Shown: positions 17,210 to 24,809 of the stretch, piece by piece | Layout: every line of letters begins with the position of its first letter | Numbering within the stretch: the stretch's first letter is position 1 | Assembly: GCA_013813875.1 (NCBI GenBank) | Contig: JACCQZ010000293.1 | Coordinates: 1 to 50,536 of the forward strand | DNA length: 50,536 bases | Source of the DNA: Gemmatimonadales bacterium | GTDB taxonomy: Bacteria; Gemmatimonadota; Gemmatimonadetes; Gemmatimonadales; GWC2-71-9 | Direction: 5' to 3' | Position numbers and translations under genes: made by a program | Notes under the pieces: generated by a model | Seen by the model: the letters and a program-made list of their open reading frames with translations, nothing else | Databases searched by the model: none | Told to the model about the DNA's origin: nothing

Positions 17210-17296
17210 CGGACAGGGTGGGATTCGAACCCACGATACCGTTGCCGGTATACCGGTTTTCGAGACCGACGCCTTCAGCCACTCGGCCACCTGTCC
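17210..17296 (-). tRNA. tRNA-Ser (CGA anticodon)
   Basis: Reverse complement GGACAGGTGGCCGAGTGGCTGAAGGCGTCGGTCTCGAAAACCGGTATACCGGCAACGGTATCGTGGGTTCGAATCCCACCCTGTCCG: 7-bp acceptor, D arm, CTCGAAA anticodon loop, long variable arm, T arm. CCA not encoded. Confidence 0.95.
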
Positions 17297-17519: not shown

Positions 17520-18326
17520 TCAGCTGGACCCGATGTCCAGCCGGAGCTGCAATGGCGAGGCGGCTGGTCTGACTCGGCTCCGTGGCCGAGCCGACCCTGG
17601 CTCGAGAACCAGGCCGGGCGAGGGTGCATGCGCTGAAGCGGGAGGCGGCCCGATCGCACGATCGCCTGGCGGCCCGCACGACGCGTCAATGAGCTCTCGC
17701 AGGCTTGCCTCAGCCACTCCGAGTCGCCGCGCCAGCGTCGCTTCCACCCGGGGCGCTCGCTGCGTCCCAGCCAGCAGCGCGTAAGTGATCGCGCTCGACA
17801 GCCCCTCGGCGCGGCACCAGCTGGCGAGGGTGGTCGGGTGGAGTAGGAGCTGCACCACCAGCGAAGCCGAAAGCGCGGCCACGTCCAGCGCCACCCGGTA
17901 AACCGCCTTCTGCTCCAGGGGATTGGTGCCGTCCCGCCGCCCCAGCCGTTCACCGGTGGCGGGAGACCAGGTCCACGCTGAGGTCGGAGCTCCCGGTGGG
18001 ACCGGCGGCCGCAAGGCTCGAGGCACCCGCGGCTGAGTATCAATGAGATCGGCCAGCACCGCCGCGGGTACGTCCAATCGCTCGGCCAGCCGTTGCCGCA
18101 GCCGCACGAACGGCTTACGGCCCGCCAGCGCGTTGTGGACCAGCGGCGGGGTAACCCCCTCGCCGCGCGACCACCCCGCTATGGTCTCGGGCCAGAGCAG
18201 CAGCGACACCACCAGCGATGCGGGAAACGACGCGATGTCCGCCCGCACCTGCTCCACGGCGGCTCGTTCGAGCGGCGAGGAACCGGTACGGGCCCCAACG
18301 GCGGGAGAGGCAAGCTCGGCGGTCAC
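17520..18326 (-). CDS. Protein with two tandem ~80-aa HTH-like repeats, GTG start
   Basis: 268 aa; residues ~17-96 and ~135-214 align without gaps: PLER.AV..V..D.A...ASLVV.LLL.P.T.A.W.R.EG...........LAG.....R....LA.RL.V....L..LID. Confidence 0.75.
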   Translation of the reverse strand: MTAELASPAVGARTGSSPLERAAVEQVRADIASFPASLVVSLLLWPETIAGWSRGEGVTPPLVHNALAGRKPFVRLRQRLAERLDVPAAVLADLIDTQPRVPRALRPPVPPGAPTSAWTWSPATGERLGRRDGTNPLEQKAVYRVALDVAALSASLVVQLLLHPTTLASWCRAEGLSSAITYALLAGTQRAPRVEATLARRLGVAEASLRELIDASCGPPGDRAIGPPPASAHAPSPGLVLEPGSARPRSRVRPAASPLQLRLDIGSS

Positions 18327-18408
18327 CGGTGAACGCTATGCCCCGACTAACCGCCCGTCAAGACACCGAAATGCAGATAACCTCGTATGGGGCAAGGGAA
18401 TAGGGCAT

Positions 18409-18439
18409 AGGTAAGTTTCCCGGAGCAGGAAAGTTACCT
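18409..18439. promoter_or_regulatory. Palindrome aggtaagtttcc-cggagca-ggaaagttacct upstream of the tandem-HTH gene; possible operator
   Basis: 12-bp arms, 11/12 complementary, 7-nt spacer, in the divergent intergenic region 18327-18612. Confidence 0.5.
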
Positions 18440-18612
18440 GGTAGCCTCTGCCCTTCTCCGCTTTTGCCAGCGCCCATCCGACAAATGCCGAAAGAGCGGC
18501 AGAATCCCTCCGCTGGGAAAAGCCGCCGGCCGGGAGCACTCGGGAAGATATTGCGGAGGTGGGATTTACCCTGCTGCAACTTTCGGTACGTCGCTTGCGA
18601 CGACACCGGTGT

Positions 18613-19167
18613 ATGCGCCGGACCCTTCCCCTCATACTGCTGGTGGGACTCGCCTTTGCCGCCGGGTGTGGTGCTGTCCTTGCCGCCGGAGACAGGCTCG
18701 AGCTGGAGACCCGTGCCCCGACCCTAGGTGCCGCCGGGACCCCGGACAGCGCGGTCGTCGCGCGGGCACGCGTCATCATGGACGACGACCTGGCCGACGC
18801 GGCGGTGGCCGTCTTCGACCGCGTGGCGCCTCGCATCCACTTGAACGGGCGGCTGCTGCGGGAGCTCGGGCCCGCGCTCTCGACTTTTCTGCTGGCCCAC
18901 GAGCGGGGCCATCTGGCCCATCACCACGCGCGGCGTCACGGCTTCGGGTTTACCGCGATCCCCACTCCTTCCTCGACCCTGCGCGGCTACGAGTTCGTGG
19001 CGGACTGCTATGCCGTCCGCTCGCTGCAACGCGGACGCCCCGATGCGGTGGTTGCGGCGGTGCGGTTCTTTCAGCTCCGCCGGGGGCTGGTGACCGACGC
19101 GGAGCATCCGCCGATGGGTGAGCGAGCCGACAGCTTGATCGCCTGTCTCAGCGCCACGGCGCAATAG
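18613..19167 (+). CDS. Small lipoprotein with HExxH metalloprotease-like motif
   Basis: ATG at 18613; MRRTLPLILLVGLAFAAGC lipobox; LLAHERGHLAHHH and downstream YEFVADCYAV. Confidence 0.75.
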   Translation: MRRTLPLILLVGLAFAAGCGAVLAAGDRLELETRAPTLGAAGTPDSAVVARARVIMDDDLADAAVAVFDRVAPRIHLNGRLLRELGPALSTFLLAHERGHLAHHHARRHGFGFTAIPTPSSTLRGYEFVADCYAVRSLQRGRPDAVVAAVRFFQLRRGLVTDAEHPPMGERADSLIACLSATAQ

Positions 19168-22970: not shown

Positions 22971-24809
22971 CTACGGCCGCAGCCTGCGCGCACCGCCGGT
23001 TCGGACGGTGACTCCTTTGAGGTCGGCCCATTCCAGCAGGGGGATCAGATACTTCCGGCTGATGCCCAGCCGGTCGCGGAGCAGAGCCGGGACGATCTCC
23101 GCCTCGAGGCCGAACTCCTCCAGCGCCCGCACGAAGCGCTCGAGCGCGGGGCGCCCGTAATAGCGGTCGCGCTCGACCGCCACGACCCTTCCACCGGCCG
23201 CCGCCAGCCGGAGCAGCGCGGTCAGATCGCTGCGGCCGGTCTGCCGCTCGAGCTCGACGACGCTCGGAGGGCTCAGCTCCCCCTGCTCCACCAGTCCCAC
23301 GATGCGATCCATTTCGGCATCTCCGCCGGCGACGCGCGGCACGAACCCGGCGAGCGCCGCGAAGCCGTCGGCCCGGCGGATCCGGCCGGCCTTACCCAGG
23401 TCATCGAGCACCGCCTCCACCAGCGCTCCGGGCGCGCGCAGAGAGTGGCGCAGGGTTTCCAGCGGAATGCCGCGATCGCTGATGTGGCTGCGATGGAAAG
23501 CGCGAGTCTTCTCCAGCGCACGCCGGCCGATCTCCTCCAGTGCGGCAGCGGCCACCCAGCGGCCGGCCACCAGGCGCGCGTCTCGGCTCCGGGTCGCCAC
23601 CCCGCTGGCTGCGCCGGGCGGAGGGCCGAGCATGATGGCCAGGGCCTCGGACCCGATGCCGTCGGGGTGGCGCTCCAGCAGCGCGGCGAGCCGGGGCGGC
23701 CCGGAGCGATCGGCCAGCCCGGCGGGCCAGAGAGCTCGCCGAGCTGGGGGCAACGGATCGAGCACCCTCCCGCCTCCCACCGTGGTGACCGGACTGTAGC
23801 TGCGGAGCACGAAGCGGTCTTCTCCCCGCCCGACCACTGGACGCTCGAGCACCAGACGGGCCAGCCCTCGCTCCCCCGGCGCGATCGGCGCCCGGGGCAA
23901 CACCCGGGCCATCACTTCCGCGGTCCCCAGATGAAAGCGTACCCGGCTTCGGGTACCGAGCGGGCGGGGCGCCGCCGAGCTCAGCGCGATTTCCACGTCG
24001 AGCGTGGTGGTGGCGGACCAGGGACTCTCCTCCGCGACCAGGACGGTTCCTCGGGACGCGGCATCGCGGTCCAAGCCGCCGATGCCCACCGCGGTTCGCG
24101 CCCCGGGTTCGCTCCGCTCTACCGGCTGGCCATGGATCTCGATGGAGCGGACCCGGCCGCGGCCGGTGCCCGGCAGGAGAGCGACCTGATCTCCCACCGA
24201 GAGGCGGCCCGACCAGGCCGTCCCGGTTACCACCGTCCCCACGCCGGCGAGAGAGAAGGCGCGGTCAACCGGCATGCGGAACAGATCCCCGGCCGGCCGG
24301 GACGGCAGGGCGAGTGCGCCGGCCAGCAGGCGAGCCCGCAGCGCCGCCAACCCGACCCCGGTCCGGGCCGAAACCGAAAGCGGCGGCTCGAACGCCACCG
24401 TAGACCCCGCCAGCCGCTCGGCGAGATCGGCGCACACCAGCTCGAGCCACTCGGGGTCGCAGAGGTCCGCCTTGGTGAGCACCGGTATGCCCCGAGGCAC
24501 GCCGAGGTGCTCCAGTACCGCGAGATGCTCCTCGGTCTGCGGCATCACACCTTCGTCCGCAGCCACCACCAGCAACGCCAGGTCCACGCCGGAGGCCCCG
24601 GCCACCATGGTGCGAACGAAGTCTTCGTGGCCGGGCACGTCTACCACGCCGGCCGTCAGCCCCGGCGCCAACTCCAGCGGAGCGAAATTGAGATCAATGG
24701 TGATCCCGCGCCGGCGCTCTTCCGCCAGCCGGTCCATGGTCCGGCCGGTGAGGGCGGCGACGAGCGCCGACTTGCCATGATCTATGTGCCCCGCGGTGCC
24801 GATGATCAT
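22971..24809 (-). CDS. selB: Selenocysteine-specific translation elongation factor
   Basis: 612 aa; MIIGTAGHIDHGKSALVAALTG, DLNFAPLELAPGLTAGVVDVPGHEDFVRTMVAG, long C-terminal winged-helix region. Confidence 0.94.
   Translation of the reverse strand: MIIGTAGHIDHGKSALVAALTGRTMDRLAEERRRGITIDLNFAPLELAPGLTAGVVDVPGHEDFVRTMVAGASGVDLALLVVAADEGVMPQTEEHLAVLEHLGVPRGIPVLTKADLCDPEWLELVCADLAERLAGSTVAFEPPLSVSARTGVGLAALRARLLAGALALPSRPAGDLFRMPVDRAFSLAGVGTVVTGTAWSGRLSVGDQVALLPGTGRGRVRSIEIHGQPVERSEPGARTAVGIGGLDRDAASRGTVLVAEESPWSATTTLDVEIALSSAAPRPLGTRSRVRFHLGTAEVMARVLPRAPIAPGERGLARLVLERPVVGRGEDRFVLRSYSPVTTVGGGRVLDPLPPARRALWPAGLADRSGPPRLAALLERHPDGIGSEALAIMLGPPPGAASGVATRSRDARLVAGRWVAAAALEEIGRRALEKTRAFHRSHISDRGIPLETLRHSLRAPGALVEAVLDDLGKAGRIRRADGFAALAGFVPRVAGGDAEMDRIVGLVEQGELSPPSVVELERQTGRSDLTALLRLAAAGGRVVAVERDRYYGRPALERFVRALEEFGLEAEIVPALLRDRLGISRKYLIPLLEWADLKGVTVRTGGARRLRP

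Follow-up and report, generated by a model that had tools for sequence, protein, structure and literature searches.

The window, by which we mean the whole stretch of 50,536 nucleotides analysed here, carries on its minus strand a gene for a 268-aa tandem-HTH protein (17520..18326, GTG start at 18326); the earlier note had placed the open reading frame correctly, leaving its strand unmentioned. Compared with the orthologue of a sister species (G003), which is 67% identical, the gene shows 62, 52 and 150 differences at codon positions 1, 2 and 3, and since the changes fall mostly at third positions we regard it as a real coding gene. It is present in one copy in its own genome. The gene adjoins a tRNA-Ser(CGA) gene (17210..17296, minus strand) that belongs to an older tadA/tRNA-Ser neighbourhood; tadA and tRNA-Ser lie close together in sister species, and in the window the tandem-HTH gene and an M48-like gene stand between them. 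The latter, an M48-peptidase-like gene (18559-19164, plus strand), is divergent to the tandem-HTH gene, scores just under the Pfam cut-off and is missing from those tadA flanks that were retrieved for sister species; it seems to have entered this junction alongside the tandem-HTH gene or close to it. Elsewhere in the window, an ORF at 22971-24809 (minus strand) resembles by eye SelB, the selenocysteine-specific elongation factor; no selenocysteine tRNA was found in the window.

The protein is built from two units of 80 residues each, unit 1 at aa 17-96 (18039..18278, minus strand) and unit 2 at aa 135-214 (17685..17924, minus strand), as read from the repeat alignment and, for unit 2, also from the fold model and profile matches. 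The two align ungapped with 37 of 80 residues identical, exactly over the two gapless stretches of about 80 residues quoted in the earlier note, and their BLOSUM62 score of 164 lies about 30 s.d. above that of 5000 shuffles (mean 25.4, s.d. 4.6, maximum 56). The duplicated unit is found in 9 of the 11 homologous proteins. In a tree of units, every first unit groups with the single unit of one homologue (G225), and every second unit stands apart; this topology fits one old duplication, with branch support that is just moderate (82/90).

The unit is predicted to be a Cro/C1-type (XRE) HTH, by fold and not by sequence. An AlphaFold2 single-unit model made from five unit sequences (pLDDT 85.8, pTM 0.69, six helices) shows the five-helix fold with an HTH in helices 2-3 that defines the Cro/C1 superfamily; the HTH is formed by H38-45/H49-56, and its helices lie at about aa 49-67 (18126-18182) in unit 1 and aa 167-185 (17772-17828) in unit 2. 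In Foldseek comparisons, almost all of the top PDB and viral matches were Cro/C1 regulators, among them EnrR, the 434 repressor, SinR, HigA and the R-M controllers C.Esp1396I, C.BclI and C.AhdI from the PDB, and Cro/CI proteins from viruses. The individual E-values are weak (0.13 or worse, none below 0.1), so the Cro/C1 call rests on the consistency of the match list together with phage HTH profiles, which match unit 2 with E-values among the homologues down to 1.5e-7 for phrog_925 and 3.2e-7 for BcepMu gp16. These lines of evidence support the proposal that each unit holds a Cro/Ner-type HTH. A full-length model made from three sequences was of low confidence (54.5) and its fold matches were useless; of the structure predictions the earlier note had called for, only the single-unit model thus proved good.

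None of the named families in the libraries searched reached its own cut-off with this protein, in line with the earlier note, which had recognised none. The curated Pfam cut-offs for Cro/C1 HTHs were not reached (HTH_35 at 17.3 bits against 25; HTH_3, HTH_31 and YdaS weak too), nor was the 34-bit cut-off of the BcepMu gp16 family (TIGR04111), for which the window protein scored 22.7 bits and the best homologue, the G003 orthologue, 30 bits; a PDB sequence profile search with the protein gave nothing meaningful. The BcepMu gp16/phrog_925 proteins match over the HTH of unit 2, but they are single-HTH proteins of about 55-70 residues that have neither the duplication nor the tail described below. 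The 434- and lambda-type repressor domains have the same fold, the 434 repressor matching over about 60 residues at 2-2.5 A, whereas their sequence identity to the unit is about 25% and they dimerise non-covalently. The earlier note had allowed that homologues without the second repeat might expose the first as a known non-DNA-binding domain; one-unit homologues do exist (G056 and G225), but they carry the same HTH-like unit.

Upstream of the gene, 84 bp from the start codon, lies a double palindrome that we regard as a putative operator (18410..18438, reading GGTAAGTTTCC-N7-GGAAAGTTACC on the plus strand), composed of 11-bp quasi-palindromes at 18410-18420 and 18428-18438. Across loci the consensus is GGNAWSWTNCC-N5-9-GGNAWSWTNCC, and it stands upstream of 10 of the 11 homologues, in two of which (L030 and L036) one half is clear and one weak; it is lacking only at L031, the locus of the most divergent one-unit protein. 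In the 3.3-Mb genome there is a single exact N7-spaced pair and no instance of a reversed control pattern, and 200 shuffled windows contained no exact pair. Because the consensus had first been spotted by eye, we retested it on held-out loci: with a matrix built from genus g1 only, and whole loci of 6.6-20 kb scanned, the top-ranking double site fell no more than 400 bp upstream of the gene in eight of the nine loci other than g1, which cover five other genera. Single strict sites number four in the genome, two of them within the operator, and the remainder are no more frequent than in sister species that lack the gene, which indicates that the operator site belongs to the tandem-HTH gene; on the same grounds we rejected a genome-wide regulon. 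A second exact double site in G003 was discarded because it sits at a contig end that nearly duplicates this locus: the end of contig C72 (L092:6185-6213) bears a near-identical double operator and the same DUF1801-like upstream gene, and comes either from a variant strain or from a recent duplication of the G003 locus.

The arrangement recalls R-M controller (C) proteins such as C.Esp1396I and C.Csp231I, which share the Cro/C1 fold and which likewise have a double palindromic operator upstream of their own gene; there, two palindromes are occupied by two dimers, the distal site activating and the proximal site repressing (PMC4321490). C proteins have one HTH per chain, whereas the present family has two fused units and mostly a clamp-like tail, and their operators (GACT/AGTC, CTAAG/CTTAG) differ in sequence from the one found here. 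No R-M endonuclease or methyltransferase was seen among the annotated neighbours, which comprise the part of the flanking ORFs that was scanned. With two palindromes on offer, one for each two-headed protein, it is plausible that the two fused units act as a covalent pseudo-dimer, as the earlier note had proposed. G225 combines the same double operator with a one-unit protein, which implies that the operator does not require a fused pair.

A candidate promoter, TTGACG-N17-TAGCGT (18333..18361, minus strand), was read by comparison with G003: the pair TTGAC(G/C)-N17-TAGCGT is common to the window and G003 with nearly identical hexamers and stands directly before the GTG, so that the transcript is possibly leaderless. 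A generic consensus promoter scan did not list this pair. This sole conserved promoter-like pair is about 50 bp downstream of the operator, which makes simple autorepression less than obvious; the operator could as well serve activation or looping, or act on a second promoter.

The last 50 residues have very low model confidence, which we take as disorder, and diverge freely in sequence between homologues. At aa 260-265 (17532..17549, minus strand), within this tail (tail peptide SPLQLRLDIGSS), the window protein carries QLRLDI, a hexapeptide resembling sliding-clamp-binding motifs. Such motifs are described as Qphi-x-[L/M][F/L] or Qphi-x-[L/M]-x-[F/L] and are often C-terminal, as in Pol IV (PMC11139829). 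The corresponding tail ends are QLRLDL in G003, QLGLGF in G191 and QLSLGL in both G267 and G268, and, in the one-unit homologues, QMGLSL (G056) and QIRFEL (G225); QLRLDL, QLSLGL (twice), QLGLGF and QMGLSL fit the definition, and QIRFEL and the window's own QLRLDI fit partly, the final Ile of the latter being tolerated, not preferred. A clamp-like motif thus closes the tails, which have otherwise diverged, of 7 of the 11 homologues, from five genera. QLSLGL is the hexapeptide of Roseisolibacter. When we counted a loose form of the motif within the last 12 residues of ORFs of at least 180 aa, 10 of the 1296 such ORFs in all loci read contained it, seven of them members of this family and three others, an enrichment of about 250-fold over background. 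Y-family polymerases of the same phylum served as a positive control, with QLGLF, QLSIF and QLELEM close to their C-termini. Judging from these sequences, the tail probably tethers the protein to the sliding clamp. The remaining 4 of the 11 homologues have no such motif; these are G138 and the members of genus g38, in which frameshifted versions were looked for and none found, and clamp binding therefore cannot be essential for the whole family.

The operator, unique in its genome, and the clamp-like tail are both new, having been missed by the earlier note. As the most economical reading we infer, tentatively and with a little less than even confidence, an autogenous tandem-HTH controller, in which a pseudo-dimer would read its own double operator and the tail would dock on the beta clamp. 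Each unit would act as a Cro/C1-type HTH and the two units of one chain as a covalent pseudo-dimer; one two-headed protein would read one 11-bp palindrome (GGNAW-S-WTNCC), the double operator ahead of the gene would accommodate two molecules, and these would set the expression of the gene, whether by activation or by repression. At the end of the long disordered linker, the hexapeptide would occupy the peptide pocket of the DNA polymerase III beta clamp, and this docking would link the protein to replicating DNA.

The fold and the operator would also be in keeping with an ordinary autoregulator, whose tandem HTH binds its own double operator and whose tail motif is accidental or serves another contact. 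The two lineages without the motif also speak for this explanation, but a motif found in five genera at the end of diverged tails, so far above background, argues against it, and we consider it unlikely.

SocB is a clamp-targeting toxin. The protein is listed in PMC5422525, and RipA is a clamp-targeting protein as well (PMC12795458). Given such precedents, the clamp-like tail and an operator suited to dose control might instead betray a clamp-directed effector, which like SocB and RipA would compete with polymerases and slow or redirect replication, its HTHs only keeping the dose of its own gene low. The position of the gene between recX and alaS, downstream of and co-directional with recA, in G138, G191, G267 and G268 (three genera) would also suit such a role; no partner antitoxin gene is conserved alongside, however, and the two lineages without the tail motif are hard to reconcile with it, so that we hold this explanation distinctly unlikely. 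We also rejected the recA-recX-alaS linkage as defining the function, as the recX-alaS gap takes unrelated genes and the gene itself lies elsewhere in other genera, near a HAD hydrolase and a DAP epimerase in g38 and near a GGDEF response regulator in G003; the recA link is accordingly suggestive only. The recX-alaS junction of Gemmatimonadota, mostly 30-150 bp (L041-L073), is a recurrent insertion slot, and its inserts in several genomes (for example L050:2244-3389, L052:1960-3059 and L054:2030-2602) are unrelated genes that resemble, named by eye, a CtaA-type protein, a glycosyltransferase-like protein or a Uma2-like nuclease.

The distribution of the family bears on whether the gene is a regulator left over from some phage or small mobile element, moving between loci with no host role. 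Homologues were found in 11 of 288 genomes of the order (9 two-unit and 2 one-unit), with no further one in a spread of 395 genomes from the phylum, and a scan of named genomes gave just two matches, Roseisolibacter sp. H3M3-2 and a Gemmatimonas MAG, which place the family in Gemmatimonadota. One further protein (G190, L038:9487-10008) matches weakly over the HTH part only (E 8e-4), and its frame overlaps an apparent nucleotidyltransferase-type gene in another frame. This patchiness, the differing neighbourhoods, the insertion between tadA and tRNA-Ser in the window and the phage HTH families among the best profile matches would all suit a mobile origin; nevertheless, no homologue was found in the phage, plasmid and viral-contig collections searched, no integrase or transposase was seen beside the gene, the operator, HTH and tail are kept over deep divergence, and the gene is stable at recX-alaS in three genera, all of which leaves a mobile remnant very unlikely. 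Integration targeted to the tRNA was likewise rejected, the gene lying on the 5' side of tRNA-Ser with no integrase in sight. Least probable of all is that some other host regulator, and not the gene product, recognises the double palindrome and controls the gene. The position of the palindrome well upstream of the likely promoter might suggest this, but the genome has a single exact double site, which accompanies the gene from locus to locus and from genus to genus, and the sole homologue without it is the most divergent.

For the autogenous controller, precedents exist for its parts. Pol IV (QLVLGL) and Hda share the QLxLxL hexapeptide in a disordered terminus (PMC11139829), but the former is a polymerase and the latter an AAA+ protein, and neither has a tandem HTH. 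In phage T4, gp33/gp55 reach the clamp gp45 as a transcription factor through a C-terminal motif (PMC9690074); they are unrelated to the tandem-HTH protein, their motif is LDFL, and the system is that of a phage. No cellular protein of this kind was found in the clamp reviews PMC11139829 and PMC9690074, and literature searches on HTHs combined with clamp motifs yielded no matching protein. If the tail does bind the clamp, this would be an unusual cellular protein of its kind. It is conceivable, if unlikely, that a sequence-specific regulator here rides on or is loaded by the sliding clamp, so that the transcription of a gene, or some local event on the DNA, is tied to the passing of the replication fork; if true, this would be a cellular counterpart of the clamp-coupled transcription of phage T4, built from a covalent Cro pseudo-dimer.

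What the locus reveals is a small, patchily distributed Gemmatimonadota gene family made of two fused Cro/C1-type modules. Cro/C1 regulators, among the best-known DNA-binding proteins, normally dimerise without a covalent link. A pair fused in nature and accompanied by a unique double operator offers a compact system for learning how covalent pairing changes operator recognition, and the clamp-like tail allows one to ask if the replication fork can have a bacterial regulator coupled to it. On the features read from its sequences, the family appears to be a DNA-binding protein that controls itself, and it may have a tie to replication.
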